A stretch of 16,074 bases of DNA from Acidobacteriota bacterium (GTDB taxonomy: Bacteria > Acidobacteriota > Terriglobia > Terriglobales > Acidobacteriaceae), in contig JAJXYW010000013.1 of the NCBI GenBank assembly GCA_021780415.1, forward strand, positions 1 through 16,074, read 5' to 3'. The number at the start of each line of letters is the position of its first letter. Position 1 is the first letter of the stretch. Positions 1,260-15,629 of this stretch are shown here, piece by piece. The notes below the pieces were generated by a model, which was not told the DNA's origin, did no database searches, and was given only the letters and a program-made list of their open reading frames with translations. A program made the translations under genes and the position numbers.

Positions 1260-1288
1260 GAGCAGAGATTAGGGAACAGAGACCAGGG
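1260..1288 (+). repeat. Degenerate heptanucleotide repeat directly after a stop codon (copy 1)
   Basis: Starting one base after the TAA of the anti-sigma gene, the sequence runs in 7-bp units: GAGCAGA, GATTAGG, GAACAGA, GACCAGG, then the decaying GATGAGT. The shared form is GA-N-N-AGR. Its first 22 bases (1261-1282) match the reverse complement of 1424-1445 at 20 positions, so this copy and copy 2 form an inverted pair around the terminator. Confidence 0.75.
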
Positions 1289-1375
1289 ATGAGTGTCCGG
1301 GAGACATTCTCTCCAGCCCCATCTCTTCACCCCGTCGGCCAATCAGCCCCAGTGATCTGCACACAAACAAAAACA

Positions 1376-1413
1376 CCAGCCGCTGCACCTCATCGCAGCC
1401 GGCTGGCATTTTC
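1376..1413. terminator. Hairpin terminator between convergent genes, probably bidirectional
   Basis: CCAGCCGCTGC at 1376-1386 pairs with GCAGCCGGCTGG at 1395-1406, apart from one bulged C, around an 8-base loop. On the + strand CATTTTCT follows; on the - strand the hairpin runs into GTGTTTTTGTTTG. The T-tract is better on the - strand, so it should stop the lipoprotein transcript well and the anti-sigma transcript at least partly. Confidence 0.75.
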
Positions 1414-1445
1414 TAATCCTTACTCCCTGTTCCCTAATCCCTGCT
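1414..1445 (-). repeat. Degenerate heptanucleotide repeat directly after a stop codon (copy 2, inverted to copy 1)
   Basis: Read on the - strand, immediately after the TAA (1446-1448) of the lipoprotein gene, the 7-bp units are AGCAGGG, ATTAGGG, AACAGGG, AGTAAGG, then ATTAGAA. It has the same position relative to its gene and the same unit order as copy 1. Bases 1424-1445 match copy 1 in inverted orientation at 20 of 22 positions. Confidence 0.75.
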
Positions 1446-2882
1446 TTAAGGCTGTGTGACGAGGACGCGAAGGCCGTTGCCTTGCAGCGGGATGTGGGTC
1501 TGGACGGTGTTGGTGTCGGTGTAAATGACGCTCATGTACTGGTTGTCGGAGGAGGTGACGTAGACCTTGCCGGCGGGCTGCCCACCGGTGGCGGATACAG
1601 AGTTGGGATGGCCGAAGATCACGTTGGAGGTGCCATTGGCCAGTGCCGTGGCGGCACTGCCGGAGATGCCACAGATGGTAGTGACAACTTGGTCGGTCTG
1701 AAGATTGATGACCGTGACGGTGCCGGCATCGGAGTTATTGGGGCAGGTGCCGGTGCTGTCGCCCTGATTGATGACGTAGGCGGCGGGCGGGTTGCCGTTC
1801 TTACCCTGGAGGACCGAGACCATGGTCGGGTTAATACCTACGGGAACGGTGGCGAGGACCTGGCCGAAGTTGGTGGCATCGACCGGGTTGGCGGCGCTGC
1901 AATTGGGGTTGGTGGGCTGAGCAGAGGAGTTGCAGAGCGGGATGTTGATGATGCTAAGACTGCCGGCCTGACCCGGTGCGCCCTGATTGGCCACGACCAG
2001 AAGTGTGTCCACGCTGTCGAGGTCGGCCCACACAGGATTGGAGCCGACGTTGATGGTGGGCTTGTAGGCGTCAAGGTCGTTATTGGGGACGTTGATGACC
2101 GAGACGGTGCCGGAGCCCTGATTGAGGATGAAGGCGCGGCGGTCGTCGGGGGTCATGATGCCGTAGATGGGGGCGACGCCGACGGGGATCTGGGCGGAGT
2201 CCGAGAGCGTAATGGTGGAGATGGTCTCGATAGAGTCGACCTGGCCGACACCGCCGGGGAATTGTTGCGAGTTCTGGCTGATGGCGTAGACGCGGGGGGT
2301 ACCGGCGGCGCCGACAACGTAGACCGGGTTAGTGCCGCGCTGGATGCCGACGTTGTCATAGAGCGCGGCGGTGAGGGCGTTGACGGCGGCGATGCTGTTG
2401 GTGTTGCTCTCGGGGATGAAGATGGTGGAGAGGCCGCTGGCTGGGGAAAGTCCGGTAATGCTGATCGGGGTGTTATTGACCGGGAGGGTGGTCTGGGTGA
2501 CACCGCTGGTGATCAGGGCCGTGGGATTGGAGAGCGGGAAGGTGTCGAGCGTGCCCTGGGCGTTGATGACGTAGCCCTGACTGCCTCGGGTGCTGAGCAT
2601 GAAGTAGCTCGGATTGGAGAGAATGTTGGGCGTGGAGAGCACGGTATCGCCAGCGAAGTCGACGATGGTGAGCAGGCCGGGGGAGGTGGGGCTGGGACTG
2701 GAGACGGCGACCGCGTACTTGGTCGGCTGACCAGCGGGACCGACGGGACCGATGGCGCTGACGACGGGGCGATACTGGTTGCCGCAGCCCGTGAGGGAGA
2801 CGACGGCGGAGAAAGAAAGGGCGAGAACGGCGATGCCTGCGAGGTTCGCGCGGCGGAGACGGTTCCCTACTGGCTGGTGCAT
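1446..2882 (-). CDS. Lipoprotein with YVTN/YncE-like beta-propeller repeats
   Basis: With the chosen ATG at 2882 the protein has 478 residues. It starts with a basic n-region (NRLRRAN), a hydrophobic core and a lipobox LTG-C33, so it should be lipidated by Lgt, cut by LspA and placed in the envelope. The remainder is a series of roughly 40-50 residue beta units with YVTN-family character: GTVSVINV, GSLSIINIP, GTVTVINLQTDQVV and YMSVIYTDTNTV, often preceded by an xxYVINQG strand. This predicts a seven-bladed propeller whose ligand is unknown. The frame stays open a further 78 codons upstream to 3116, but those residues precede the signal peptide and overlap the divergent gene. The chosen start has no clear Shine-Dalgarno. 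Confidence is high for fold and location, low for function. Confidence 0.8.
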   Translation of the reverse strand: MHQPVGNRLRRANLAGIAVLALSFSAVVSLTGCGNQYRPVVSAIGPVGPAGQPTKYAVAVSSPSPTSPGLLTIVDFAGDTVLSTPNILSNPSYFMLSTRGSQGYVINAQGTLDTFPLSNPTALITSGVTQTTLPVNNTPISITGLSPASGLSTIFIPESNTNSIAAVNALTAALYDNVGIQRGTNPVYVVGAAGTPRVYAISQNSQQFPGGVGQVDSIETISTITLSDSAQIPVGVAPIYGIMTPDDRRAFILNQGSGTVSVINVPNNDLDAYKPTINVGSNPVWADLDSVDTLLVVANQGAPGQAGSLSIINIPLCNSSAQPTNPNCSAANPVDATNFGQVLATVPVGINPTMVSVLQGKNGNPPAAYVINQGDSTGTCPNNSDAGTVTVINLQTDQVVTTICGISGSAATALANGTSNVIFGHPNSVSATGGQPAGKVYVTSSDNQYMSVIYTDTNTVQTHIPLQGNGLRVLVTQP

Positions 2883-3017
2883 ACTCGTGTGACGCAAAGT
2901 TCCGAACAAACAGTACTCCCCGGAAGGAGTCGCTTTGAGCTGAGGGTAAACCACAGGCACCGGAGAATAAAACCGGGCGGCTGAGAACCAGATCGGCGCG
3001 ACTGCCTTCGACATCTG

Positions 3018-3023
3018 ATTGTA
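3018..3023 (-). promoter_or_regulatory. Candidate -10 box for the lipoprotein gene
   Basis: On the - strand TACAAT lies about 136 bases upstream of the lipoprotein ATG in the divergent intergenic region. No convincing -35 sits at 16-18 bp, so this is only a candidate. The rest of 2883-3114 shows no hairpin, RNA gene or repeat that I can support. Confidence 0.25.
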
Positions 3024-3102
3024 AACGAATACGAGCAGTGAATCCGCGACGCTGTGATTCCACCGATCCGGGAGGGGCAGAGTTTCAGGATTTAAAGCGA
3101 AT

Positions 3103-3108
3103 GGAGAG
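3103..3108 (+). promoter_or_regulatory. Shine-Dalgarno that decides the start of the CoA-binding gene
   Basis: GGAGAG ends directly before the upstream ATG at 3109, too close for initiation there. It lies at a normal distance from the second ATG at 3115. Confidence 0.6.
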
Positions 3109-3114
3109 ATGACC

Positions 3115-3531
3115 ATGAATGAAGCTGAGTCGATGCTGGAGATGCTGGGGGGACGCGAGAAGGCGCCGCGAACGCTGGCGGTGGTGGGGCTGTCGGATGA
3201 CCCGGCGAAGGCAAGCTATGCGGTGTCGGCGTATATGCAGGAGCATGGGTACAGGATTCTGCCGGTAAATCCGGGGATTGAGAGCGCGCTGGGGGAGAAG
3301 AGCTATGCGTCGCTGAGCGAGCTGCCGGAGCGGCCGGATGTGGTGAATGTGTTTCGGCTGCCAAAGGCGATTCCGGCGATTGTGGACGAGATGCTGGAGC
3401 TGGGGCTGACGAATCTTTGGGTGCAACTGGGGATTCGAAATGAGGAGGCTGCGGCAAAGGCTGCGGCGGGCGGGATTCGGGTGGTGATGGACCGGTGCAT
3501 TATGGTGGAGCATCGGCGGCTGATGCGGTGA
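3115..3531 (+). CDS. CoA-binding protein (CoA_binding_2, YccU-like)
   Basis: The protein has 138 residues and a single Rossmann domain of the CoA-binding family related to the N-terminus of succinyl-CoA synthetase alpha. Seen are the nucleotide loop LAVVGLSDDPAKASYAVSAYM (20-41), the second strand YRILPVNPG (46-54), SLSELPERPDVVNVFRLP (67-83), and LGLTNLWVQLGIRNEEAAAKA (96-116) ending in VVMDRCIMVEHRRL. The family usually binds CoA, but the cellular role is not established. Two ATGs are possible: 3109 abuts the GGAGAG at 3103-3108, while 3115 is 8 nt from GGAG, so 3115 is preferred. The DsbD-like gene starts 33 nt after its stop. Confidence 0.88.
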   Translation: MNEAESMLEMLGGREKAPRTLAVVGLSDDPAKASYAVSAYMQEHGYRILPVNPGIESALGEKSYASLSELPERPDVVNVFRLPKAIPAIVDEMLELGLTNLWVQLGIRNEEAAAKAAAGGIRVVMDRCIMVEHRRLMR

Positions 3532-3552
3532 ACGACGGTGCTACTTTGCTTC

Positions 3553-3558
3553 TACAAT
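3553..3558 (+). promoter_or_regulatory. Candidate -10 element giving a leaderless dsbD-like transcript
   Basis: TACAAT ends 6 nt before the ATG at 3565. Transcription normally starts about 6-7 nt after a -10 box, so the mRNA would begin at or next to the start codon. No strong Shine-Dalgarno is present. A -35 match is not obvious. Confidence 0.4.
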
Positions 3559-3564
3559 AGGCGG

Positions 3565-5700
3565 ATGGATAGAGAGCGTTTGCGGATGCGTGGCGTAGGG
3601 CTGGCGGTGCTGGTGATGGCCGCGATGGCGGTGGGGTCGGTTGCGCGGGCGCAGATGAAAGAGGTGGGCAACGGCGGGCCGGGGCCGGTGAAGGCTGAGC
3701 ACCTGACGGCGGAGTTGACCGCGCTGTCGCCGCAGATTGCGGTGGGTGGAACGCTGCAGGCGGGGCTGGTGCTGACGATCGAGGAGCACTGGCATGTGTA
3801 CTGGGTGAATGCGGGGTCGGCGGGCGAGCCACCGAAGATTACGTGGACGCTGCCGGCGGGAATGACGGCGGGGCCGATGCAGTTCCCTCCCCCTGAGCGG
3901 CTGCCGCTGGGCCCGCTGATGGACTATGGGTATGAGGATGGGGTGGCGTTTCCGGTGCTGCTGAACGCGTCGCCGAAGATGAAGCCGGGGAAGGTGCACC
4001 TGGATGCGGAGGTGCGGTGGCTGGTGTGCAGCAGCGTGTGCCTGCCGGGGAAGGCTCACCTGGGGATCGATGTGGAGGTGGTGAAGGGGCCGGTGGCGGA
4101 GGCGAAGCCGGTGGGGGCGCTGGGGTCGGCGCTGGCTGCGCTGCCCAAGCCGCTGCAGGCGGGGATGAGTGCGACTGCGGTGGGCGATGCGAATGAGATT
4201 CTCGTCACACTGAAGACCGGCACGCGGGAGACGGATGCGGAGCTGTATCCGTTCGATCCGGGGCAGATTGACGACGCCGCGAGCCAGCAACTGCAACCGC
4301 TCGCCGATGGGGTGAAGATCTGGCTGAAACGGGCTCCGGATGCGACGAGCCTGCCGAAGACGCTGCATGCGCTGGTGGAGTTGAGCTCGACCGAGGCGTA
4401 TGAGTTTACGGCGGACGTGACGCCGGGGGTGGTGGCGGCGCCACCGATCGCCGCGAAGAAGGCGGCGGCGGACGAGAGCACGGGGACGGACCTGAACGCG
4501 TTCAGCGCGATTGGACTGGCGTTTCTGGGCGGGCTGCTGCTGAACCTGATGCCATGCGTGTTTCCGGTGCTGTTTCTGAAGGGGCTGGCGCTGCTGAACT
4601 CGCGGGATGAGGAGCGGGGACGGCAGCGGACGCATGGGCTGGTGTACACGCTGGGGATTGTGGTGAGCTTCTGGGTGATCGTGGCGGCGCTGCTGGTGCT
4701 GCGCGCGGGCGGGCGCGAGCTGGGGTGGGGGTTCCAGTTGCAGTCGCCGGGGTTTGTGGCCGTGCTGGCTTCGCTGGTGTTCTTTTTGGGATTGAGCCTG
4801 GCGGGGCAGTTTGAGATTGGGCTGTCGCTGACCAGCGCTGGTGGGGGTCTGGCGAAGAAGCAGGGGCTGGCGGGGAGCTTCTTTACGGGCGTGCTGGCGA
4901 CGGTGGTGGCGACGCCGTGCATGGCTCCGCTGATGGGCGCGGCCGTGGGCTTTGCGCTGGTGCAGGCGGCCTGGCTGACGTTTGTGGTGTTTACTGCGCT
5001 GGCGCTGGGGCTGGCGCTGCCGTACCTGCTGCTGAGTATGCAGCCGCAGTGGACGAAGTTCCTGCCGCGGCCGGGTGCGTGGATGGAGACGCTGAAGCAG
5101 ATGGTAGCCGTGCCGCTGTTTGCGACGGCGATCTGGCTGGCGTGGGTATATGGACAGTTGTATTCGCCGGAGGGCGTGGACCGCATGGTGTGGCTGCTGA
5201 GCGGGTTCCTGGTGCTGGCGATTGCGGGATGGGCGCTGGGTAAGTGGCCGGCGAAGTGGGGCTCGGCTGTGGCTGCGGTGGTGCTGATTGCAGTGGCGCT
5301 GGCGCTGCCGCTGCGTAAGCCCGCCGTCGAGACGCTGGTGTGGCAGCCGTATACCGAGGCGAACTTTGCAGCGGCTCGGGCTACAGGCAATCCGGTGTTC
5401 ATCGACTTTACGGCGGCGTGGTGCTTGAGCTGCCAGGTGAATGAGCGGGCGGTGCTGAAGTCGAAGGATGTAGAAAAAGCGCTGGAGAAGAATCATGTGC
5501 AACTGCTGAAGGCCGACTGGACGCAGTATGATCCGGCGATCACGCGGGAGCTTGCGGCGGTGGGGCGGAGTGGCGTTCCGACGTATGTGATCTACCCGCC
5601 GGGGAAGGTGTCGAATGCGGATGTGCTGCCGGAGTTTTTGACCAAGGCGGTGGTGCTGACGGCGATTGAGAAGGACGCGAAACCGATGGGGACGGAGTAA
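3565..5700 (+). CDS. dsbD: Thiol:disulfide interchange protein, DsbD/ScsB family
   Basis: The protein has 711 residues. A signal peptide covers about 1-29 (LAVLVMAAMAVGSVARA). A periplasmic N-terminal ScsB-type domain (about 40-290) has EEHWHVYWVNAGSAGEPP and a cysteine pair C155/C159 (WLVCSSVCLPGKA). The membrane core of about eight helices (312-585) holds the paired half-site cysteines C331 (NLMPCVFP) and C452 (VATPCMAP). A C-terminal periplasmic thioredoxin domain (590-711) has the active site C620-LS-C623 and the cis-proline region GVPTYVI. Electrons should pass from cytoplasmic thioredoxin through the membrane cysteines to the outer domains, feeding disulfide reduction, copper-stress or cytochrome c pathways. 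All six redox cysteines are present. The start at 3565 is chosen for the signal peptide; a GTG at 3538 would add nine residues. Two stretches of heptad-like and palindromic repeat follow the stop. Confidence 0.92.
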   Translation: MDRERLRMRGVGLAVLVMAAMAVGSVARAQMKEVGNGGPGPVKAEHLTAELTALSPQIAVGGTLQAGLVLTIEEHWHVYWVNAGSAGEPPKITWTLPAGMTAGPMQFPPPERLPLGPLMDYGYEDGVAFPVLLNASPKMKPGKVHLDAEVRWLVCSSVCLPGKAHLGIDVEVVKGPVAEAKPVGALGSALAALPKPLQAGMSATAVGDANEILVTLKTGTRETDAELYPFDPGQIDDAASQQLQPLADGVKIWLKRAPDATSLPKTLHALVELSSTEAYEFTADVTPGVVAAPPIAAKKAAADESTGTDLNAFSAIGLAFLGGLLLNLMPCVFPVLFLKGLALLNSRDEERGRQRTHGLVYTLGIVVSFWVIVAALLVLRAGGRELGWGFQLQSPGFVAVLASLVFFLGLSLAGQFEIGLSLTSAGGGLAKKQGLAGSFFTGVLATVVATPCMAPLMGAAVGFALVQAAWLTFVVFTALALGLALPYLLLSMQPQWTKFLPRPGAWMETLKQMVAVPLFATAIWLAWVYGQLYSPEGVDRMVWLLSGFLVLAIAGWALGKWPAKWGSAVAAVVLIAVALALPLRKPAVETLVWQPYTEANFAAARATGNPVFIDFTAAWCLSCQVNERAVLKSKDVEKALEKNHVQLLKADWTQYDPAITRELAAVGRSGVPTYVIYPPGKVSNADVLPEFLTKAVVLTAIEKDAKPMGTE

Positions 5701-5730
5701 GGCAGAGGATAGGGGATAGAGGATAGTGAA
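5701..5730 (+). repeat. Degenerate heptanucleotide repeat directly after a stop codon (copy 3)
   Basis: Immediately after the dsbD-like TAA the 7-bp units are GGCAGAG, GATAGGG, GATAGAG, GATAGTG, then decay. The theme matches copies 1, 2 and 4: three variable bases followed by AGRG. Confidence 0.75.
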
Positions 5731-5820
5731 TCGATGAGAGCGGTTGCGGCGGAGGGGATGCTCGCCGATGCGATGAGGCGAAGGGAGTGGTGGCCTGCAT
5801 GGCGGCTGGTGTGCTGCAGG

Positions 5821-5871
5821 GGGTCTCTCCGCCGCGGCGGCGACGAGCACCGCCTTCGGTCGAGATGACGG
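5821..5871 (-). repeat. Palindromic GTCATC-type dispersed repeat, intergenic copy
   Basis: On the - strand the element begins CCGTCATCTCGACCGAAG and ends near GGAGAGACCC, with a GC-rich middle. The 18-base core at 5854-5871 matches 15 of 18 positions of the core at 6565-6582 inside rarA. I recall related GTCAT...GA.CGAAG sequences as common dispersed repeats in Acidobacteriota and some other phyla; a genome-wide count is needed. The rest of 5731-5902 shows nothing I recognise. Confidence 0.5.
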
Positions 5872-5902
5872 TGGCTGGGTGGGCGCTTGGTGAAGAGATG
5901 CT

Positions 5903-7285
5903 CTAGGATTTTGCTTCGCGGAGTTTGGCGATCTCTTGCATGCGCTGGGCTAAGAGTTTTTCGCGGCCTTCCTGCGTGGGGTGGTAGTAGCGGCGAGTGG
6001 CGAGGTTGTCGGGGAGACATTGCATCGCGGCTACTTTGCCTTCGATGTCGTGGGCGTACTGGTAGTTCTTGCCGTAGTCGAGTTCCTTCATAAGCTTGGT
6101 GGGGGCGTTGCGCAGGTGGAGCGGTACGGGCTCGGCGGGGTGGGATTCGATGTCGGCGAGGACCTGACCGTAGGCCGTGTAGACGGCGTTGGATTTGGGC
6201 GCGAGGGCGAGGTAGACGACCGCCTGCGCGAGGGCGAGTTCCCCTTCGGGACTGCCTAAGAAGTGCATGGCGTCGCGCGCGGAGAGGCAGAGGTTGAGGG
6301 CCTCGGGGGCGGCCAGGCCGATGTCTTCGACGGCCATGCGGACGATGCGGCGAGCGACGTACATGGCGTCTTCGCCGGCGGCGAGCATGCGGCCGAGCCA
6401 GTAGAGGGCGGCGTCGGCGTCGGAGTTGCGTACGGATTTGTGGAGGGCGGAGATGATGTCGTAGTGCTGCTCGCCTTTTTTGTCGTAGAGCAGGACGCGC
6501 TGCTGGAGGGCTTCGGCGGCGATGGCGGGGGTGATGCGGAGGAATCCTGCGGACGATGGGCTCGCTTCGCTCAGGATGACGGGATTTGTGGGGGCGAGGC
6601 CTTCGGTGAGTTTGGCGGCGACTTCGAGGGCATTGAGAGCGTTGCGGGCGTCTCCGCTGGAGTAGCTGGCGATGGTGTCGAGGGCGCCTTCTTCGGCTTC
6701 GATGTGGAGTGCGCCCAGACCGCGTTCTGTGTCGGTGAGGGCGCGGTGGAGGAGGGCGATGATCTCGGACTGGTCGAGGGCGCGGAGGGTGTAGACGCGG
6801 CAGCGGGAGAGCAGGGCGGCATTGATTTCGAAGCTGGGGTTCTCGGTGGTGGCGCCGATGAGACGAATGGAGCCGCGCTCGACGTAGGGGAGAAAGGCGT
6901 CCTGCTGGGCTTTGTTGAAGCGGTGAATCTCGTCGATGAAGAGGATGGTGCGGGAGCCGTAGGTGGCGGCCTTTTCGGCGTCGGCCATGACCTGCTTGAT
7001 CTCCTTGATGCCGGAGAGGACGGCGGAGAACTCGATGAAGGTGGCAGACGTGCGGTTGGCGATGATCTTGGCGAGCGTGGTTTTGCCGACGCCGGGAGGG
7101 CCCCAGAAGATGAGGCTGGCTGCGTCATCGTTTTCGATCTGGAGTCGCAGCGGTTTGCCGGGCGCGAGGAGGTGGGTCTGGCCGAAGAACTCGTCGAGGG
7201 TGCGGGGACGCATGCGCTCAGCGAGAGGGGCGCGCTGGGCCGAGGGGTTGGTGGAGGCGTCAGGGTTAGGGGCGAAGAGGCTCAT
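5903..7285 (-). CDS. rarA: Replication-associated recombination protein RarA/MgsA (AAA+ ATPase)
   Basis: The protein has 460 residues, the usual family length. The N-terminal AAA+ module has LAERMRPRTLDEFFGQ, Walker A G62-PPGVGKTT70, Walker B near 114-119 (ILFIDEIHRF), sensor 1 GATTENPSF (144-152) and the arginine region LLSRCRVY. The C-terminal tetramerisation part begins ITPAIAAEALQQRVLLYDKKGEQHYDIISALHKSVR. RarA acts at stalled replication forks with SSB and RecA. Residues about 233-250 (TNPVILSEASPSSAGFLR) sit at the junction of the two parts, are not typical of the family as I recall it, and are encoded by a palindromic repeat. The gene lies 39 nt downstream of the RNA methyltransferase; its leader is heptad repeat with no Shine-Dalgarno, so translation may depend on readthrough from upstream. 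Confidence 0.95.
   Translation of the reverse strand: MSLFAPNPDASTNPSAQRAPLAERMRPRTLDEFFGQTHLLAPGKPLRLQIENDDAASLIFWGPPGVGKTTLAKIIANRTSATFIEFSAVLSGIKEIKQVMADAEKAATYGSRTILFIDEIHRFNKAQQDAFLPYVERGSIRLIGATTENPSFEINAALLSRCRVYTLRALDQSEIIALLHRALTDTERGLGALHIEAEEGALDTIASYSSGDARNALNALEVAAKLTEGLAPTNPVILSEASPSSAGFLRITPAIAAEALQQRVLLYDKKGEQHYDIISALHKSVRNSDADAALYWLGRMLAAGEDAMYVARRIVRMAVEDIGLAAPEALNLCLSARDAMHFLGSPEGELALAQAVVYLALAPKSNAVYTAYGQVLADIESHPAEPVPLHLRNAPTKLMKELDYGKNYQYAHDIEGKVAAMQCLPDNLATRRYYHPTQEGREKLLAQRMQEIAKLREAKS
6536..6589 (-). repeat. Palindromic GTCATCCTGAGCGAAG-type repeat inserted in frame in rarA
   Basis: On the - strand the DNA reads CCCGTCATCCTGAGCGAAG, a short middle, then GCAGGATTCC. 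ATCCTG (6544-6549 on +) and CAGGAT (6572-6577) form an inverted repeat. The stretch encodes NPVILSEASPSSAGFLR at RarA residues 234-250 and keeps the frame. It lies between GDARNALNALEVAAKL and ITPAIAAEALQ, normally joined by a short variable linker. Confidence 0.6.
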
Positions 7286-7286
7286 A

Positions 7287-7318
7287 AGGACAGGGGGATA
7301 GAGGATAGGGGATAGCGC
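7287..7318 (+). repeat. Degenerate heptanucleotide repeat between two genes (copy 4)
   Basis: On the + strand the units read GACAGGG, GGATAGA, GGATAGG, GGATAGC. It fills nearly all of the 39 nt between the stop of the RNA methyltransferase (7325) and the start of rarA (7285). Both genes are on the - strand, so here the G-rich strand is antisense, opposite to copies 1-3. Confidence 0.7.
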
Positions 7319-7324
7319 TTGCTG

Positions 7325-8140: not shown

Positions 8141-8251
8141 GATGCGTGCGATAAAAGGCGCTGAACCCAAGTGTACGCGCAGATTCGCCGAGGATTGTGC
8201 GGTGCGGGCTTCGCCGCGACCGAGCGAATGGGATAAAGTCATTGCTGGGAT

Positions 8252-8255
8252 GGAG
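8252..8255 (+). promoter_or_regulatory. Shine-Dalgarno that decides the tsaC start
   Basis: GGAG lies 5 nt before TTG 8261 and overlaps the alternative GTG at 8255. This favours initiation at the rare TTG codon. Confidence 0.45.
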
Positions 8256-8260
8256 TGACC

Positions 8261-8905
8261 TTGAACGCTGATGTGATTCGGATTCATCCGGACGAACCGG
8301 AACCTCGTTTGATCGCGCAGGTCGTTGAGTCGCTGCAACGCGGCAATGTGGTTGCGCTGCCGACGGATACGTTCTATGGGCTGGCGGTGGACCCTGTGAA
8401 CCTGCGGGCGGTGGAGCACATCTACGATTTGAAGACGCGGGCGCGGCACAAACCGCTTTCGCTGTTGATTTCGGATGTGGCGCAAGCGTATGAGCTGGCG
8501 CGGTCGATCGATAGCACCTTCGATAGGCTGGCGGAGAAGTTCTGGCCGGGGCCGCTGACGATTGTGGTGAAGGCAGGGAGCAAGCTGCCGCTGCGCGTGA
8601 CGGCGAATACCGGCAACGTTGCGTTGCGCGTGCCCGAGGCGCAGATCTGCAGGGCCGTGGTGAGTGCGCTGGGGCTGCCGATTACGGCGACGTCGGCGAA
8701 CCTGAGCGGGCAGCCGGAGTGCACGTATGCGGCGTGCGTGCGCGAACAATTTGGCGAAAAGATTCCGCTGATTGTGGATGGTGGGCCGACGGCGCGGTCA
8801 GTGGCGACAACCATTGTCGACTTGAGTGGCGGCGGAAACTCGTGGATGATTCTGCGCGAGGGAGCTATCCCTACGCATGAGATCGTGCTTGCGCTGCAGC
8901 ACTAA
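8261..8905 (+). CDS. tsaC: L-threonylcarbamoyladenylate synthase (TsaC/Sua5/YrdC)
   Basis: The protein has 214 residues from TTG 8261. It makes threonylcarbamoyl-AMP from threonine, bicarbonate and ATP, the first step of t6A at tRNA position 37 for ANN codons. Family signatures are VVALPTDTFYGLAVDP (30-45), the KTR...HKPLSLLI block (58-70), FWPGPLTIVVKA (94-105), GNVALRVPEA, LPITATSANLSGQPE (139-153) and the closing TIVDLSG...WMILREGAI (184-203). No Sua5 C-terminal domain is present, so it is the short bacterial form. Two starts are possible: GTG 8255 overlaps the GGAG at 8252-8255, while TTG 8261 has it 5 nt upstream and is preferred. The YdcF-like gene follows on the same strand. Confidence 0.93.
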   Translation: MNADVIRIHPDEPEPRLIAQVVESLQRGNVVALPTDTFYGLAVDPVNLRAVEHIYDLKTRARHKPLSLLISDVAQAYELARSIDSTFDRLAEKFWPGPLTIVVKAGSKLPLRVTANTGNVALRVPEAQICRAVVSALGLPITATSANLSGQPECTYAACVREQFGEKIPLIVDGGPTARSVATTIVDLSGGGNSWMILREGAIPTHEIVLALQH

Positions 8906-8980
8906 AATGAGATGCTTCGAGGAGAGAGGCTGAATTCTGCACAAGTGATCGCGGCATACTTAGAGCAGGTTCCGACACGC

Positions 8981-9652: not shown

Positions 9653-9670
9653 GAACTAGTCTTAAGCTAC

Positions 9671-10799
9671 CTATTCCTCTTCGTCGGCGATAGGTGCGGG
9701 GACGCCGCCTTCCCTGCGCATGCGGAGATAGCCACGGATGAAGGGCTCGAGTGCGCCGTCGAGGACCTTGTCGACGTCGCCGACTTCGACGCGCGTGCGT
9801 AGATCCTTTGCCATGCGATAGGGCTGCAGGACGTAGCTGCGAATCTGTGAGCCGAACTTGATGTCGAGCTTGGAGTCCTCGAGCTTGCGGCTGATGGCCT
9901 TCTTCTTGTCGAGCTCGTACTCGTAGAGCTTGGAGCGCATCATCTTCATGGCGCGGTCCTTGTTCTTATGCTGCGAGCGTTCGTTCTGGCAGCCGGTGAC
10001 GAGGCCCGTGGGGAGATGCGTGATGCGGACCGCGGAGTCGGTGGTATTGACGTGCTGGCCGCCCTTGCCGCCGGAGCGGTAGGTGTCGATGCGCAGGTCT
10101 TCGGGCTTGATGTCGATGACGATGGTGTCGTCGATTTCGGGTGAGACGAAAACGCTGGCGAAGCTGGTGTGGCGGCGCTTGGCGGAGTCGAAGGGCGAGA
10201 TGCGGACGAGACGATGGACGCCAGTTTCGCCGCTGAGGAGGCCGAAGGCGAAGTCACCGTTGATGGTGAAGGTGGCGGACTTGATGCCGGCTTCGTCGCC
10301 GTCCTGAATCTCGTTGATCTCTACCTTGAAGCCCTGGCGCTCAGCCCAGCGAATGTACATGCGCATGAGCATCTCGGCCCAGTCCTGGCTCTCGGTGCCG
10401 CCGGCGCCGGGGTGCACGGTGACGATGGCGTTGAGCGGGTCGGTGTCGCCGGAGAGCATGGTTTTGGATTCGAGCGCGTCGGCGAACTCGACCAGCGCGG
10501 GGATCTCGCGGGTGAGGTCAGGCTCGGTGTTTTCGCCTTCACGGGCTAGCTCGAAGTAGGCCTCGATGTCATCGGAGCGGCGAGCGAGTTCGGCGTCGTC
10601 GGCGAGGAGGGTTTCGAGACGCTTGCGCTCGCGCATGAGGGGCTGTGACCTGGCGGCGTCGGCCCAGACGGATGGGTCGGAGATCTTCTGCTCGACGGCA
10701 GCTAACTCGGTCTTGAGGCGGGAGGAGTCAAAGATACTCCCGCAGCTCGCGTATTTTTTCGCGGACCGGGGAGTAGGTGAATTCGAGATCGCTCAGCAT
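9671..10799 (-). CDS. prfB: Peptide chain release factor 2, with programmed +1 frameshift
   Basis: RF2 reads UGA and UAA and triggers hydrolysis of peptidyl-tRNA. Translation from ATG 10799 gives 23 residues (MLSDLEFTYSPVREKIRELR, then EYL) and meets TGA at 10730-10728. A +1 slip on CTT continues with DSSRLKTELAAVEQKI and gives a 375-residue protein. In that numbering the stop-codon recognition motif SPF is at 201-203 and the catalytic GGQ at 246-248, close to the E. coli positions. RF2-type SPF, rather than the RF1 PxT motif, settles identity. The gene begins 4 nt after the lnt stop, so the two form an operon. It ends 18 nt from the convergent YdcF-like gene with no hairpin terminator visible between them. 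Annotation pipelines that ignore the slip would start it at 10636. Confidence 0.96.
10727..10742 (-). promoter_or_regulatory. prfB programmed +1 frameshift signal
   Basis: On the - strand the site reads CGGGAG TAT CTT TGA C. It combines an internal Shine-Dalgarno-like purine run, the usual 3-nt spacer, the slippery CTT codon, and the weak stop context TGAC. This is the autoregulatory arrangement known from E. coli: low RF2 slows termination at UGA and raises frameshifting into the full-length frame. Confidence 0.95.
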
Positions 10800-10803
10800 G
10801 GAT

Positions 10804-12423
10804 CTAGTTTACTTGGGTTTGCGTTGTAAATCTTTTGCGGGTAAGTCCGAGTGCGAGCAAGAGCGAGGTTACGAGGGCGCAGAGCCAGGCAAACCAGTCG
10901 CCGTGGCGGCTGTAGAAGGTGATGTCGCTTTCGTAGCCGAAGGGGACCTGGACCGAGGTGCGGATGTAGCGCGGTATGGTTTCGGTGATGCGGCCGCGGG
11001 GGTCGATAACGGCGGTGATGCCGGTGTTGGTGGCGCGAAGGACCCAGCGGTGGTTCTCGATGGCGCGCATGCGAACCATGTCGAGATGCTCCCAGGGGGC
11101 GCTGGTATCGCCGTACCAGCCATCGTCGGAGATATTCACTAATACCTTCGCACCCTGCAACGGGAAGCGGCGAAGGTCATCCCCGAAGATCGATTCATAA
11201 CATATAAAGGTGCCGTATTTTTTATCGCCCACGGTAAAGACGGTGCGACGAGTTCCGGGAATAAAGATGAGATCGTCGAGCAGATTCCCTACAAAGAAAA
11301 ATAGTGGCTTGTAAGGAGTGTATTCGCCGAATGGGACAAGGTGCATCTTGTCGTAGCGGCCCGCGTAACTTCCATCCGGGAGAAAAAAGCTGGCTGAGTT
11401 ATAGAGCCTTGGGTGGCCATGATCGTAGGTGGCGACGGTGACATCATTGACGATGACCGCGGCGTTGGCTTGCTGCGCGAGCGTGCTGATGGCCTGGCGC
11501 AGAACGGGATCATTGTCGTAAAAATCGGTGGGAGCTTCGGGCCAGATGATGATTTGCGAGCGCTCGTTGAGGGGTGTTCCGTATAGTTCTTGGTCCCGAC
11601 TGGTAAGTCCGATCACAGGATGCAGGCTAAGTTGCGAGAAGGAGTCGAGCATCTGCTGCCGGGTCTCGACGCGACCAGTTGCTTCGCTTCCGACACTTAG
11701 ATTCTCCTGCAGGAGGGTGGCAACGGACTGGGTGGGTTCGGGCACGTCGAAGCGATTGCGCGCGACGGCGACGGTAGCTAAAAGAACGAAAATTGCGGCG
11801 GCGGCGGCAGGCAGAAACTTCGCGCGGAGGAGCGTGGTTGCAGGACGCAGGAGCCAGAGCGCATTGACGGCGGCGATCACGAAGGAAATCCCCATGACAC
11901 CGGTCCAGGGAGCGAGCCGAGTGAGGGTGAGGTTGTCGACCTGCACGTAACCTAGAAGGTCCCAGGGGAAACCGGTGATGCGGGCGCGGGCTAACTCAAC
12001 GGCTACCCAAAGAAATGGAATGGCAAGGAGTACGACGGTGCGGGAGTAGCGCAAGCGCAGGGTGCCTACCAAGGCTCCGAAGAGTGCCTGATAGAGGCCG
12101 AGGTAGAGGGAAAAAAGAATAAGAATTCCCAGCGATGCGACGGCGGGAATGCTCGCATAGATATGCATCGTGCGGTAGATCCAGTAACAATTTCCGGCAT
12201 ACCAGACGACCCCGGAAAAGTAGGCGAGAAGGGCCGCCGGATAAGGGCGGAGTGGCTTTCCGGCACGATTGCAGCTAAGTAATGCATAGAGCAGCGGCAC
12301 CAGGCAGAACCAGCACAACGCTCTGCGCCAGAGAGGCACAGGGCCAGCAATGGAAAACGGTAATATCTGCAAGAAGGAGGAAAGTAGGGCCAAAGCCCAT
12401 AGCCGCGGGGGAATCAATCGCAT
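10804..12423 (-). CDS. lnt: Apolipoprotein N-acyltransferase
   Basis: The protein has 539 residues and is an inner-membrane enzyme that adds the third acyl chain to lipoproteins. The N-terminal half has about six hydrophobic spans (within about 8-225). The nitrilase-like domain (about 232-490) shows the catalytic triad E296 (IIWPEAPTDF), K359 (GRYDKMHLVPFGEYTP) and C408 (FICYESIF), with the supporting LVNISDDGWYGDTSAPWEHL. A final membrane span lies at about 508-527, followed by a basic tail. The lipoprotein at 1446-2882 would be one of its substrates. The start ATG at 12423 lacks an obvious Shine-Dalgarno. It is followed after 4 nt by prfB. Family and activity are well supported. Confidence 0.95.
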   Translation of the reverse strand: MRLIPPRLWALALLSSFLQILPFSIAGPVPLWRRALCWFCLVPLLYALLSCNRAGKPLRPYPAALLAYFSGVVWYAGNCYWIYRTMHIYASIPAVASLGILILFSLYLGLYQALFGALVGTLRLRYSRTVVLLAIPFLWVAVELARARITGFPWDLLGYVQVDNLTLTRLAPWTGVMGISFVIAAVNALWLLRPATTLLRAKFLPAAAAAIFVLLATVAVARNRFDVPEPTQSVATLLQENLSVGSEATGRVETRQQMLDSFSQLSLHPVIGLTSRDQELYGTPLNERSQIIIWPEAPTDFYDNDPVLRQAISTLAQQANAAVIVNDVTVATYDHGHPRLYNSASFFLPDGSYAGRYDKMHLVPFGEYTPYKPLFFFVGNLLDDLIFIPGTRRTVFTVGDKKYGTFICYESIFGDDLRRFPLQGAKVLVNISDDGWYGDTSAPWEHLDMVRMRAIENHRWVLRATNTGITAVIDPRGRITETIPRYIRTSVQVPFGYESDITFYSRHGDWFAWLCALVTSLLLALGLTRKRFTTQTQVN

Positions 12424-12566
12424 CGCTATGAGTCTAGCATCGCAGGTGGAATAAATTATTTGCTGCGCAGAAAGGCAGCTGTGCGCAGTTGAGGTGCATC
12501 CAATTTATAACATTGAGCTAGTCCATCAAGGTACATCAATTCAAGGAATAAATAAAATAGATTGAT

Positions 12567-12594
12567 TTGCAGGAAAGCTAAATAGAACTATAGA
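12567..12594 (+). promoter_or_regulatory. Candidate sigma-70 promoter for the H1-like gene
   Basis: TTGCAG (12567-12572) and TATAGA (12589-12594) are separated by 16 bp within the AT-rich gap. Transcription would start near 12601, leaving a leader of about 60 nt. Confidence 0.35.
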
Positions 12595-12647
12595 ATTCAA
12601 CATGTTGCGGAAATGCTCAAGAAATTTCAGAGATGAGCAACCATGGA

Positions 12648-12654
12648 AAGGAAG
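12648..12654 (+). promoter_or_regulatory. Shine-Dalgarno that decides the start of the H1-like gene
   Basis: AAGGAAG lies 6 nt before ATG 12661. The upstream in-frame ATG at 12643 would place this purine run inside the coding region and has only a weak site of its own. Confidence 0.6.
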
Positions 12655-12660
12655 TACCAG

Positions 12661-13038
12661 ATGGACGTTAGCAAGATTATTGCTGAAATAGATGCGCAGA
12701 TCGCCCCGTTGCAGCAAGCACGGGCAGTACTGCTGGGTTTGAGTGAGAATACTGCGGTGGCAAAACCGCGTCGTGGCCGCCCCAAGGGAAGCACGAACGC
12801 AGCGAAGCCAGCAGCGGTGAAGGTAGCCAAGCCCTCCAAGCGGAAGCGTAACCTGAGCCCCGAGGGACGGAAGCGCATTGCCGAGGCGATGAAGCGTCGC
12901 TGGGCCGAACGCCGCAATGATGCTCCCAAGGCGGCGAAGAAGGTTGCGGCAAAGAAAGTAGCTGCTCCGAAAAAAGAAGCAGGCGCACCAAAGAAGGAAG
13001 TAGCTGCACCAAAGAAGGAAGCCGCCGCGAAGAAGTAG
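12661..13038 (+). CDS. Small basic AT-hook / histone H1-like DNA-binding protein
   Basis: The protein has 125 residues from ATG 12661 (131 from ATG 12643). Residues 1-27 (MDVSKIIAEIDAQIAPLQQA and onward) form an amphipathic helix likely to self-associate. Residues 36-44 (PRRGRPKGS) are an AT-hook with the GRP core for minor-groove binding. Residues 64-85 (NLSPEGRKRIAEAMKRRWAERR) are a basic helix seen in many bacterial AT-hook proteins. The tail 88-125 is lysine/alanine/proline rich, with APKKE units like eukaryotic H1 tails. It probably acts as a nucleoid-associated protein that prefers AT-rich DNA; its own upstream region is such a tract, so autoregulation is possible. No enzymatic motif is present. 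It ends at a clear rho-independent terminator, so it is monocistronic. Confidence 0.8.
   Translation: MDVSKIIAEIDAQIAPLQQARAVLLGLSENTAVAKPRRGRPKGSTNAAKPAAVKVAKPSKRKRNLSPEGRKRIAEAMKRRWAERRNDAPKAAKKVAAKKVAAPKKEAGAPKKEVAAPKKEAAAKK
12985..13021 (+). repeat. 21-bp direct repeat coding the APKKE tail units
   Basis: GCACCAAAGAAGGAAG occurs at 12985-13000 and again at 13006-13021, a period of 21 bp or seven residues. It encodes successive APKKE-V/A-A units and shows recent unit duplication. Confidence 0.7.
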
Positions 13039-13070
13039 CCTTGCTTATCTGAGTTTCAGGGAAGGAAAGA

Positions 13071-13096
13071 GGAGCTATCTGAGATAGCCCTTTTTT
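13071..13096 (+). terminator. Rho-independent terminator of the H1-like gene
   Basis: GCTATC (13074-13079), loop TGA, GATAGC (13083-13088), then CC and six T residues (13091-13096). It lies 36 nt after the stop codon. On the - strand only a weak pyrimidine run follows the hairpin. The remaining bases to 13163 hold a small hairpin (CACGC/GCGTG at 13123-13136) without a T-tract. Confidence 0.85.
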
Positions 13097-13163
13097 CGCG
13101 TCTATTTTGGCTTTGTATATTGCACGCTTGCGCGTGAGGGCTTCTGGATGGGTGTAAGGCAGG

Positions 13164-13808
13164 TCAGCGGACCGCGATGACTTCTCGCACGTTATCTTTT
13201 CCGAGAAAGAATCGAAAGCTGCTGTAGCCTTCGAAAAACTTCTCAACCTGGCGCGTCTGGTAGACCTTGCGGACTGGGAACGATCCACTGTCGAGCGCGA
13301 GGAGGTCGTCGGCGTCGGCAAGTTGAAAGCGCGCGAAGGCAGTTTCGGGGCCTTCGAGACGACCGTGAAAGAATGCCAGCAGCATGCCGTTGGGACGCAG
13401 CACCTTGCGCAACCGCGCGAAGAGCGCGGGCACCATCTCCGGCGGGAGATAGTTGGCGGTGTCCCACAGGAGAATGACGTCGAAGGTGCGACCGGAGAAG
13501 TCGAGATTAGCGGCGATGAAGCTATCGACATCAAACTCAGGCTCGGTGTCCTTGGGGTCGAAGAGTTGCACGGGCTTAAGCCACTCGGGGCGGGTTGCGT
13601 CCTGGACGATGTTGGCCATGTAGACGCTGTGGCCGCGCGAGGTGAGGTAGTTGATGTTGGCGGGCGACGTGGTTCCGAAGTCGAGGACGCGGAGGGATTG
13701 AGTCTGCTCGAGATAGGTCCGCACCTCGACCCAGCCACGGGAGTGGCGGGGTGGCCGCTCGGAAGAATGCGCGGTGGATCCGCGCTCTTTTTTAAACATC
13801 CCAAACAT
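13164..13808 (-). CDS. Class I SAM-dependent methyltransferase (substrate unknown)
   Basis: The protein has 214 residues. The Rossmann-type methyltransferase fold is indicated by LRVLDFGTTSPANINYLTSRGHSVYMANI (39-67), by FDVILLWDTANYLPPEMVPALFARLRKVLRPNGMLLAFFHG in the middle, and by the closing beta region FRFFLGKDNVREVIAVR. Motif I is degenerate: the usual D/E-x-G-x-G-x-G appears as DFGTTSPAN, so SAM binding may be weakened or altered. The basic N-terminus (MFGMFKKERGSTAHSS) looks flexible. GGAG lies 9 nt upstream of the ATG at 13808. The gene begins 27 nt after the bactofilin stop on the same strand, implying co-expression. No specific substrate can be assigned. Confidence 0.78.
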   Translation of the reverse strand: MFGMFKKERGSTAHSSERPPRHSRGWVEVRTYLEQTQSLRVLDFGTTSPANINYLTSRGHSVYMANIVQDATRPEWLKPVQLFDPKDTEPEFDVDSFIAANLDFSGRTFDVILLWDTANYLPPEMVPALFARLRKVLRPNGMLLAFFHGRLEGPETAFARFQLADADDLLALDSGSFPVRKVYQTRQVEKFFEGYSSFRFFLGKDNVREVIAVR

Positions 13809-13835
13809 GGCTGTGATCTCCGCTGCAACTTCGGC

Positions 13836-14225
13836 TCAGGCGTGGTTGCCCTCGTGCGCTGCGCCCCCACCGGGTGACGCAGGAAATGGTTCATTGGCGC
13901 GGGATGGATCGACGCCACCACGCAGCGTGGCTCCCTCTTCTATGGACAGGCGAGTGGCGTAGATGTCACCAAGGACTACGGCACCATCGCGCAGTTCAAC
14001 GCGGCCAGTGGCACGAATTTCTCCCTCTATATGACCGGCGATGACAAGGTCCTGCGCCAAAATGATGGCATGGACACGGCCTTCGGCACGCACGGTAAGG
14101 CGTGCTCCGGGAAGACGTATCACGCCATCAACCTCGCCGTCGATCAGCAGATCGGTTGAGCCGGAAATTTCGCCGCGAAATTTAATCTCGCGGCCAATGA
14201 CAGTTGCACCTTCGGTCGGAATCAT
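13836..14225 (-). CDS. Bactofilin (polymer-forming cytoskeletal protein)
   Basis: The protein has 129 residues from ATG 14225. The core (about 8-105) is a bactofilin right-handed beta-helix: IGREIKFRGEISGSTDLLIDGEVDGVI, then turns with repeating G-x-hydrophobic periodicity (LTVRAEGRVHAIILAQDLVIAGHIEGEIRATGRVELRDGAVVLGDI in two overlapping stretches) ending SIEEGATLRGGV. The tail (106-129) is proline/glycine rich and disordered. Bactofilins polymerise without nucleotide and scaffold envelope growth, stalks or chromosome-segregation proteins. The frame is open upstream to 14309, but the conserved domain starts here and the upstream residues have no domain character. The methyltransferase gene follows after 27 nt. 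The leader lacks a well-placed Shine-Dalgarno. Confidence 0.88.
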   Translation of the reverse strand: MIPTEGATVIGREIKFRGEISGSTDLLIDGEVDGVIRLPGARLTVRAEGRVHAIILAQDLVIAGHIEGEIRATGRVELRDGAVVLGDIYATRLSIEEGATLRGGVDPSRANEPFPASPGGGAAHEGNHA

Positions 14226-14388
14226 AAAAATAGGGCCGCTCCATGGCCGAGGGAGCGCGGTCGTCACGCATCCCGGGTAATAAGCCCGACTATAAACTAA
14301 GCGGGTCAACGCGACATAATCGACGACGATGGGGGCACCATGCGTCTAACGTGGTGAGGATGCTGCTGGCGATACCGAAACCGGTGAG

Positions 14389-15525
14389 TTAGCCAGCGAC
14401 GGCGTCGCCACGGCGCAGCGTACGGCTGCGGACGGTGAGGCGTTCGATGCGGTCACGCTGGACGTCAAAGCCACGGCCCGGTGTAGTGGGAACAGTGATG
14501 GTGCCGGCAGCGCTGACGGTGACCTCGGGTTCGATGATGTCCTGTGCCCAGTAGCGTTTGGAGGCGGAGACATCGCCGGGCAGCGAGAAGTTGGGCAGCG
14601 AGGAGAGCGCGATATTGTGGGCGCGGCCGATGCCGGTTTCGAGCATGCCGCCACACCAGACGGCGATGCCGAAGGAGTGGGCGACGTCGTGGATGGCGAT
14701 GGCTTCGGTGAAGCCTCCGACACGGCCAACTTTGATGTTGAGGATGCGGGCGCTGCCAAGTTCGAGAGCTGCGATGGCGTCGCGGCGATTGCGGATGCAC
14801 TCGTCGAGGCAGATGTCGGTCTTGATGCGGCGCTGAAGTTCGGCGTGGAAGAAGAAGTCGTCGTACCAGAGCGGCTGCTCGATCATGAGGAGTTTGAACT
14901 GGTCCCAGGACTCGATGGCTGCGACGTGTGCAGCGTTGTCGAGCGAGTAGGCGGAGTTGGCGTCGCAGCTCAGCAGGATGTCGGGCCAGCGCTCGCGGAC
15001 CATCGCGAAGATGCTCGAATCCCAGCCGGGCTTGCACTTGAGCTTGATGCGCTGATAGCCGGCGGCGAGCTCTTTGGCGATGGTTTCCATGAGCTTTTCA
15101 GGCGTCGCCTGGATGCCGATGGAGACACCGCAAGGGATGGTGTCGCGGGTACCGCCGAGGAGTTTAGAGAGCGCGATTCCCTGCTGCTGCGCGTCGAGGT
15201 CCCATACGGCGTTTTCAAGCGCGGCCTTGGCCATGCGGTGGCCACGGACCTGCTCGAAGAGCGCGGGACAGTCGCGACCGGAAGCGATGGTGGCGTTGAG
15301 CAGGCGTGGCGCGAGTTCGTTCTCGATGATGATCCAGGCAGTGTCGACCTGCTCGTCGGAGAAGTAGGGGTGCTCGCCAGCGACGCACTCGCCCCAGGCG
15401 GTGAGGCCGTCGGCTTCGATTTCGATGAGGAGGATGCGGCGGCCGGTGGTGACGCCAAAGCTGGTCTCGAATGGGTGCGCGAGTGGCATCTGGATCTCGC
15501 GGACGTGGATGGCTTCGATCTTCAT
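14389..15525 (-). CDS. menC: Enolase-superfamily o-succinylbenzoate synthase / N-succinylamino-acid racemase
   Basis: The protein has 378 residues. It shows all features of the muconate-lactonizing subgroup's NSAR/OSBS family: capping domain (1-about 125, MKIEAIHVREIQMPLAHPFE), catalytic K161/K163 (RIKLKCKPG), metal ligands D188 (CDAN), E216 (MIEQPL) and D241 (CLDEC), second catalytic lysine K265 (NIKVGRVGG), and GGMLETGIGRAHN (292-304). OSBS dehydrates SHCHC to o-succinylbenzoate in menaquinone synthesis; NSAR racemises N-succinyl-amino acids with the same residues, and many members do both. The GNAT gene immediately upstream favours the racemase pathway, so the symbol menC marks the family rather than a proven role. 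AGGAG (15531-15535) sits 5 nt before the ATG. The upstream gap is mostly heptad repeat. Confidence 0.9.
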   Translation of the reverse strand: MKIEAIHVREIQMPLAHPFETSFGVTTGRRILLIEIEADGLTAWGECVAGEHPYFSDEQVDTAWIIIENELAPRLLNATIASGRDCPALFEQVRGHRMAKAALENAVWDLDAQQQGIALSKLLGGTRDTIPCGVSIGIQATPEKLMETIAKELAAGYQRIKLKCKPGWDSSIFAMVRERWPDILLSCDANSAYSLDNAAHVAAIESWDQFKLLMIEQPLWYDDFFFHAELQRRIKTDICLDECIRNRRDAIAALELGSARILNIKVGRVGGFTEAIAIHDVAHSFGIAVWCGGMLETGIGRAHNIALSSLPNFSLPGDVSASKRYWAQDIIEPEVTVSAAGTITVPTTPGRGFDVQRDRIERLTVRSRTLRRGDAVAG

Positions 15526-15530
15526 GGTGA

Positions 15531-15535
15531 CTCCT
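15531..15535 (-). promoter_or_regulatory. Strong Shine-Dalgarno of the menC-like gene
   Basis: On the - strand AGGAG lies 5 nt upstream of ATG 15525. It is one of the few well-formed ribosome sites in the window. Confidence 0.8.
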
Positions 15536-15547
15536 GCGGGGTTGTCA

Positions 15548-15629
15548 GTTCTCAGCTTCTAGCTTCTGGCTTCTAGCTTCTAGCTTCTAGCTTCTAGCTT
15601 CTAGCTTCTAGCTTCTAGCTTCTAGCTTG
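15548..15629 (-). repeat. Heptanucleotide tandem array, 10 near-perfect copies (copy 5)
   Basis: On the + strand GCTTCTA is repeated from 15555 to 15624: ten units, nine exact and one ending in G (15562-15568). Degenerate edges are GTTCTCA (15548-15554) and GCTTG (15625-15629). The unit contains CTAG across its junction. Because 7 is not a multiple of 3, TAG occurs every 21 nt in each frame on both strands. The array fills most of the 82 nt between the GNAT stop and the menC-like start, and overlaps the end of the GNAT gene. Confidence 0.97.

Follow-up and report, generated by a model that had tools for sequence, protein, structure and literature searches.

Seven-base tandem arrays at gene edges in a Granulicella-like acidobacterium belong to a dispersed intergenic repeat family

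Why should several short tandem arrays, each with a unit of exactly seven bases, stand at the boundaries of genes within one small piece of a bacterial genome? The question is raised by a 16,074-nt stretch of DNA from an Acidobacteriota bacterium (GenBank assembly GCA_021780415.1, contig JAJXYW010000013.1), which is called the window hereafter. Its host is a Granulicella-like member of the Terriglobales; the DsbD protein of the window shares 93% identity with its counterpart in an acidobacterial metagenome-assembled genome (L001) and 83% with the one in Granulicella sp. L46 (L002). A sequence-only reading had described five loci with seven-base tandem units, and Tandem Repeats Finder detected a period-7 array at each of them (1263-1289, reported as period 14; 1413-1442; 5704-5726; 7296-7315; and 15549-15628, the last with 11.3 copies and a score of 144). 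The positions given for them relative to stop codons, to a 39-nt gap and to an overlapping stop were correct, and so was the pattern NNNAGRG common to four of the five. The observation is confirmed, and the interpretation then placed on it is partly supported. The window arrays belong to a dispersed intergenic repeat family of the Terriglobales, with a 7-nt phase and the core AGRG.

The period was examined in 43 loci chosen without regard to repeats: the window and 42 obtained via a DsbD relative, with 157,823 non-coding and 591,410 coding bases in all. In the non-coding DNA the commonest lags were 7 and 14, with eight and nine segments that come partly from the same arrays. Lag 15 gave six segments, and each of lags 4-6 and 8-13 gave one to four (1, 4, 1, 1, 3, 2 and 2 for lags 5, 6, 8, 9, 10, 11 and 13). 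Coding DNA held two lag-7 segments; the window itself contributes three lag-7 segments. Among 25 related whole genomes, four AGRG cores at 7-nt spacing gave 935 matches in 19 genomes, with overlapping matches within one array counted separately. The same search gave five matches in two genomes at 8-nt spacing and 145 matches in 12 genomes at 6-nt spacing; those listed for the latter are mostly AGAGCA/AGGGCA hexamers of another family. Other spacings were used as controls because runs of AGGGA-type units contain the reversed pattern, so that a reversed-pattern control also matches in many genomes (220 versus 359 matches in genome G095). Over the whole order, the 7-nt pattern was found in 241 of 397 genomes, some of them with a single match only.

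The units differ between genomes and might be described as dialects. For example, TAGAG-type dialects occur in G002 (Granulicella sp. L46), G006 and G017, and ATTAGGG, AACAGGG and YYCAGGG in G006, G017 and G018. Elsewhere, AATAGGG/AACAGGG was found in G095, GTCAGGG/ATCAGGG in G155, and CTGAGAG in G239.

Twenty stretches each were sampled from G002, G006, G017 and G018, and 20 in total from G095, G155 and G239. The stretches were chosen for holding arrays (except part of those from G018), and densities are taken from whole-genome counts alone. Genes were called with our own caller, which gave 14 genes on the expected strands in the window and missed the open reading frames (ORFs) 12643-13038 and 13836-14309. 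The main set comprises 144 arrays of at least four units from the first four genomes: 114 are intergenic, 25 lie within called genes, and five lie at stretch ends. The in-gene and stretch-end arrays are omitted from the distance counts.

The arrays are placed with a clear polarity. In 54 of the 114 intergenic arrays, only 0-3 nt separate the 5' end from the 5'-side gene; the 3' end lies as close to the 3'-side gene in none of them, and two overlap that gene. Random placement of each array within its own gap, with gene-overlapping arrays also left out (101 of 114 kept), would put 7.1 of 101 at the edge on either side; 52 were seen on the 5' side and none on the 3' side. The counts of 5'-edge arrays were 26/40 in G002, 15/46 in G006, 12/23 in G017, 1/5 in G018, 4/31 in G095, 7/13 in G155 and 0/2 in G239. 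Over all seven genomes, 65 of 160 arrays have the 5' end within 0-3 nt of a gene edge, and none has the 3' end there. Read on the purine-rich strand, an array often begins at the edge of a gene, start or stop, and its 3' end stands free.

The edge rule applies to stop codons and to start codons of opposite-strand genes. Three start-edge genes (TrmD, RecO and an EVE-domain protein) were checked, and all three are genuine. The rule also extends to an RNA gene: the RNase P RNA gene of one G002 stretch (Rfam, L137:2727-3192) is followed by an array that begins at 3196, and a second array, 22 nt before the 5' end of the gene, points away from its other end. Moreover, 11 of the 114 arrays overlap their 5'-side gene, and in several cases the array supplies the stop codon. 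The link with gene boundaries that had been read from the window is therefore real; starts are also used, as at 7287-7318, which adjoins the RarA start, and ‘gene ends’ should be replaced by ‘gene edges’. The comparison that had been proposed with the first description, of period 7 against other periods and of enrichment at gene edges in relatives, found an excess of both. A fossil stop codon, in which TAA, TAG or TGA is formed with the T of CAT, was found at 14 of 16 start-edge arrays and at 125 of 613 control starts. This count is not relied on, because purines prevail in the arrays there, and T followed by a purine pair is a stop in three of four combinations.

The arrays also have a common anatomy. 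Four units were found in 65 and five units in 68 of the 144 arrays (133 together). The first slot is mostly GGC, AGC, GAC or AAC (RRC, which gives the head RRCAGRG) in G002, G006 and G017, and CGT is the most frequent triplet of slot 5 in the same genomes, tied with GAT in G017. The order of units is often common to different loci of one genome, so that an array looks like something copied whole and not like a fresh slippage run. One array of G002 (L145:12138-12236), behind a stop codon, has 12 units; the other sampled G002 arrays have four to six.

Neighbouring arrays and DNA strand showed further regularities. Among inverted neighbours within 250 nt, 31 pairs in six genomes were convergent and none divergent; 20 pairs had equal orientation, of which 13 come from G095. 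The share of paired arrays differs between genomes. G006, with a weak GC skew (mean 0.08), has 31 of its 46 intergenic arrays in convergent pairs; the numbers are 4/40 in G002 (skew 0.30) and 0/23 in G017 (skew 0.22). Single arrays lie on the local G-rich strand in 35/36 cases in G002, 12/15 in G006, 22/23 in G017 and 5/5 in G018 (74/79), and 44 of them have a sense gene on the 5' side, 35 an antisense one. The orientation of single arrays thus tracks the G-rich strand and not the gene strand. With singles and pairs taken together, 28/31 arrays agree with the skew in G095, 8/13 in G155 and 0/2 in G239. The G-rich strand is the leading strand in most bacteria. The sampled stretches of G002 (L131-L150) have a very strong GC skew, of about +-0.3 in many 20-kb stretches, intergenic DNA included.

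The arrays of the window and their surroundings, against which the relatives were compared, are as follows.

390-1259, plus strand: RskA_C anti-sigma gene, the upstream neighbour of array A-left.
1261-1288, plus strand: array A-left, with the units AGCAGAG ATTAGGG AACAGAG ACCAGGG; it begins 1 nt past the RskA_C stop.
1289-1410: centre of gap A, between the convergent genes, with a GC-rich stem-loop followed by T's at about 1376-1414.
1445-1411, minus strand: array A-right, with the units AGCAGGG ATTAGGG AACAGGG AGTAAGG ATTAGAA; it is flush with the stop of the convergent gene (gene end at 1446).
5701-5728, plus strand: array B, with the units GGCAGAG GATAGGG GATAGAG GATAGTG; it is flush with the stop codon (5698-5700) of the plus-strand DsbD gene.
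7286-7315, plus strand: array C, AAGGACAGGGGGATAGAGGATAGGGGATAG; its 5' end adjoins the RarA start codon (CAT, 7283-7285) of the opposite strand.
7286-7324: the 39-nt gap that holds array C, which separates the RarA/MgsA start (7285) from the SpoU methylase stop (7325).
15549-15628, minus strand: array D, about 11 copies of GCTAGAA (TTCTAGC on the plus strand).

A-left and A-right are near copies in inverted orientation, and the two arms base-pair with each other in the predicted fold of 1257-1449. The sequence of the gap A centre differs among the compared relatives. The units of array C are irregular over 7287-7318. Array D represents a dialect different from that of the other four, and three GCTAGAA units are present in 29 of the 397 Terriglobales genomes. 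The minus-strand ORF 15608-16063 takes its stop codon and its last codons (LEARS) from this array.

Comparison between species showed that place and sequence evolve differently. Arrays stand at both edges of gap A in the window, L001 and another relative, L022. The two arms of this gap agree with each other at 0.62 in the window, 0.52 in L001 and 0.53 in L022, whereas all 20 same-side comparisons between species are at or below 0.32. A similar result was obtained in G006. Across 13 same-subfamily pairs (of 16; three of mixed subfamily were dropped), and with the heads excluded, the arms match at 0.776, as against 0.697 +- 0.030 for swapped arms, a value reached in 6 of 5000 draws. The arms of one gap are homogenised and resemble each other more than their orthologues.

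Array B is kept at the same place with different units in the window, L001 and L002, and is missing in L003 and L034. L001, the closest relative of the window, lacks array C and has a gap of 5 nt at this place. By eye, the methylase frame at this SpoU methylase/RarA junction of L001 appears to enter the RarA start. Among orthologues in G002, G006 and G017, both members carried the array in three of five distinct start-edge cases and in two of 11 stop-edge cases, with different dialects in one of the two; these fractions are too high, because the samples (except L242) were picked for arrays. Distinct pairs were counted, since the listing repeats some pairs and includes three below 30% identity. 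The gaps in G022, G017 and G003 that are orthologous to those of L137 gave few usable alignments.

We tentatively favour, at a little less than an even chance, a dispersed intergenic repeat acting at the DNA level, spread by copying, homogenised by slippage and arm-to-arm copying, and bounded by selection at gene edges. A growing DNA strand would switch to an existing array, copy it and land back on the chromosome, which would give a new copy. The units would then be altered and homogenised by slippage of 7 nt per step and by copying from one hairpin arm to the other. Copies that ran into a gene would be lost, and the surviving arrays would be flush with gene edges. The strand bias might arise in two ways: the process may act on one replication strand, or a strong G/C mutational skew may erode C-rich arms on the leading strand. 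No role in expression would be required, and some copies may have been recruited. Such copying and loss agree with the unit order common to different loci, with concerted arms and convergent pairs, with the strand bias, and with an edge rule that covers coding genes and one RNA gene. The tests of functional readings were mostly negative, and a function is unproven.

Several points weigh against this account. Strand-switch copying was inferred and not observed. Strong as it is, the edge rule has exceptions: many arrays stand at least 4 nt away from an edge (46 in three genomes), the 25 arrays inside called genes stand outside it, G095 has just four edge arrays among 31, and the two arrays of G239 fit neither edge nor skew. 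Agreement with skew falls to 27 of 46 when all arrays of G006 are taken, and the 8/13 of G155 is likewise low. The gap A arms are weaker or lost in L002 (0.19) and L034 (0.21). If single arrays are remnants of pairs, a trace of the lost arm might be expected at the opposite edge, and none was seen in G002 and G017; the strong skew of these two genomes could have erased a partner arm. Finally, start-edge positions were kept between species in the three of five distinct orthologous cases given above, which may point to a function.

The best surviving alternative, though an unlikely one, is a role in RNA: once transcribed, the two arms of a gap would base-pair with each other and serve as, or lengthen, a 3' end or a bidirectional terminator. 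The predicted folds of paired arrays are strong against mononucleotide shuffles (z -17.7 in L157, -14.3 in L169, -11.1 for gap A in L022 and -7.0 for gap A in the window), and the closer match of arms within loci than between loci is also what pairing would produce. Paired arrays may therefore act as RNA hairpins. However, window array B alone shows no fold (z +1.9), and single arrays have no complement within 150 nt downstream in G002 (4.85 versus 4.94 shuffled) and G017 (5.62 versus 5.44). The singles of G006 gave 8.47 versus 5.94 shuffled, and six of 18 have a weaker partner. Terminator-like hairpins, as defined by a simple hairpin and T-run rule of our own, were not enriched behind stop-edge arrays (9/53, as against 56/456 control stops), and the many arrays at start codons do not suit a terminator.

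A mobile element similar to repetitive extragenic palindromic (REP) sequences or to miniature inverted-repeat transposable elements (MITEs), moved by a transposase and with paired arrays as its inverted ends, is quite unlikely. It would agree with the dispersed copies, usual head, common unit order, inverted pairs and strand bias, and with the presence of array C in the window and its absence in L001. The Y1/REP-associated transposase family PF01797, the sole transposase family examined, was nevertheless found in 22 of 24 array-rich genomes and equally in 22 of 24 genomes without a match to the fourfold AGRG pattern. No target duplication was seen by eye, and insertion would not account for 5' ends flush with gene edges. 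Plain neutral microsatellites of seven bases, formed by slippage without spreading, are very unlikely. Array D and the long pure arrays of G095 and G239 do resemble simple slippage; the unit order common to different loci, the usual head, and the pinning to edges far above uniform placement do not.

A G-quadruplex (G4) element, the explanation offered for the Xanthomonas and Nostoc heptads, is most unlikely here. Four GGG tracts are present in most arrays of the AGGG dialects (15/16 in G018, 13/17 in G155 and 22/34 in G095), whereas they occur in only 3/43 arrays of G002, 12/32 of G017 and 26/53 of G006. It is in G002 and G017, which are poor in G4-capable arrays, that the edge and strand rules stand out best. 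As a general basis G4 was rejected, being contradicted by the AGAG dialects.

A translation backstop, in which a TAG-bearing heptad places stops in all three frames behind genes, is extremely improbable. All frames are closed inside the array in 40/43 cases in G002, 24/53 in G006 and 20/32 in G017, and some genes, including the ORF that ends in array D, obtain their stop codon from an array; but the numbers are 0/17 in G155, 3/16 in G018 and 11/34 in G095, stops are useless at start-edge arrays, and G155, whose dialect has no stop codons, still obeys the edge rule with 7/13 arrays at an edge. Closed frames hold for some dialects only and were rejected as a general purpose. The meaning that the sequence-only reading had seen in 7 being coprime with 3 is likewise unsupported, given the spread from 40/43 in G002 to 0/17 in G155.

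Scarcely credible, too, is a promoter ladder, in which the complementary strand at start edges would offer TANNCT boxes every 7 nt as -10 elements of leaderless or nearly leaderless transcripts: in divergent gaps of G002, G006 and G017, 6-9% of starts have TANNNT at exactly -12, TAG-type start-edge arrays place the box at about -13/-14 (by eye), and such arrays are kept at three orthologous starts, but this offset misses the -12 optimum, other offsets also exceed 6% in G006 and none does in tandem genes of G017, the AGGG/YYC dialects have no TANNCT box, and stop-edge arrays would drive antisense transcription. The TANNNT signal at -12 in the divergent gaps of these three genomes is in itself a signature of leaderless transcripts.

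Copying and loss remain the preferred account, and the family might be compared with repeats known elsewhere. Cyanobacterial short tandemly repeated repetitive sequences are species-specific heptanucleotide tandem repeats. An acidobacterial counterpart of heptads known elsewhere had been suspected from the window, and this is what the family is; the documented counterparts are the G-rich heptads GGGAATC of Xanthomonas and GGGGA(C/T)T of Nostoc PCC7120 (Rehm et al. 2015, PMC4692102). The Xanthomonas heptads lie on average 28 nt from the 5' ORF as against 160 nt, and form 70 and 75 convergent pairs in two genomes. Rehm et al. proposed G4 formation and left the function open; they cite a suggestion that heptads reflect the contact length of a polymerase, and earlier surveys in which heptads are over-represented in many bacterial genomes, for a cause that is not agreed (PMC4692102).

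The similarities are considerable. Like the Xanthomonas heptads, the acidobacterial arrays have a 7-nt unit, prefer about four units, are mostly intergenic and form convergent pairs, and related species have the same gaps occupied with changed length (PMC4692102). In both Xanthomonas and Nostoc the G-rich strand also starts near the 5' ORF regardless of the ORF strand (PMC4692102). The acidobacterial family differs in its core AGRG with three variable bases and many dialects, in place of GGGNATC or GGGGAYT. It abuts gene edges almost exactly, a point that was not resolved by the 0-50 nt classes used in PMC4692102, and its strand bias goes with GC skew, whereas the Xanthomonas heptads are described there as having no leading or lagging preference. 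The four GGG tracts needed for G4 are present in some acidobacterial dialects only, and most arrays of the AGAG dialects cannot form the structure. The family and the Xanthomonas and Nostoc heptads are repeats of one kind; the sequence of the family sets it apart, and its G4 capacity agrees with theirs only in part.

Two other systems are less similar. TAACTGA repeats, reported from Beggiatoaceae, Cyanobacteria and Bacteroidetes, are heptamers of one fixed sequence that mostly precede a start codon by a few nt and point toward it (MacGregor 2015, PMC4679880). The acidobacterial units have other sequences, and the start-edge arrays point away from the gene. REP sequences and bacterial interspersed mosaic elements (BIMEs) are short dispersed intergenic repeats, often in inverted pairs, with REP-associated Y1 transposases. 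The acidobacterial arrays are likewise short, dispersed, intergenic and often in inverted pairs; unlike REP/BIME, no hairpin was found in the single arrays folded or tested, and PF01797 does not track the arrays.

The polarity and the convergent pairs were already known from the Xanthomonas and Nostoc heptads (PMC4692102). The acidobacterial family, the near-exact edges, the strand bias and dialects mostly unable to form G-quadruplexes are new; no acidobacterial heptad family was found in searches of the open-licence literature, and the string ‘acidobacteri’ is absent from PMC4692102. The family has the polarity of the Xanthomonas and Nostoc heptads without their sequence or, in several genomes, G4 capacity, which speaks against G4 as the general reason. 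The question shifts to the 7-nt copying step, the replication strand and gene edges. The pattern in many soil Acidobacteria, in Xanthomonas and in Nostoc suggests one general and unexplained process that shapes intergenic DNA. The diversity of dialects within one order narrows the possible explanations, and comparative genomics together with cultivable Granulicella makes the question testable.

In a more specific and unlikely form, a general DNA process with a 7-nt step would start at gene edges and, moving outward, add or copy G-rich or purine-rich heptads in a telomere-like manner, on the strand that runs out of the gene with its 3' end. It would have arisen or spread in at least three groups (Acidobacteriota, Xanthomonas and Nostoc) with different sequences, and only the step, the polarity and the start at gene edges would be conserved. 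Its traces would be made flush by purifying selection on genes, RNA genes included.

Plasmids were also searched. The first 50 kb of the Granulicella tundricola plasmid pACIX901 hold no arrays; a plasmid collection yielded three weak matches, in other genera, when searched with one array and none when searched with one Nostoc heptad.

Other repeats were observed beside the family. A separate tandem hexamer family, AGAGCA/AGGGCA (GCAAGA/GCAAGG), occurs at L137:8480-8570 and 8682-8705 and at places in G001, G003, G007 and G010. The L137 hexamer arrays adjoin other repeated DNA with many BLAST matches in G001, G003 and G024. By eye, window 5818-5880 and L137:8615-8675 have the form GGTCTCTCC...GGTCGAGATGAC / CATCTCGACCGC...GGAGAGATCCC and are probably another dispersed intergenic repeat. 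Within the Lys/Ala-rich ORF 12643-13038 of the window, which is histone H1-like by eye, a 21-bp repeat occupies 12952-13021.

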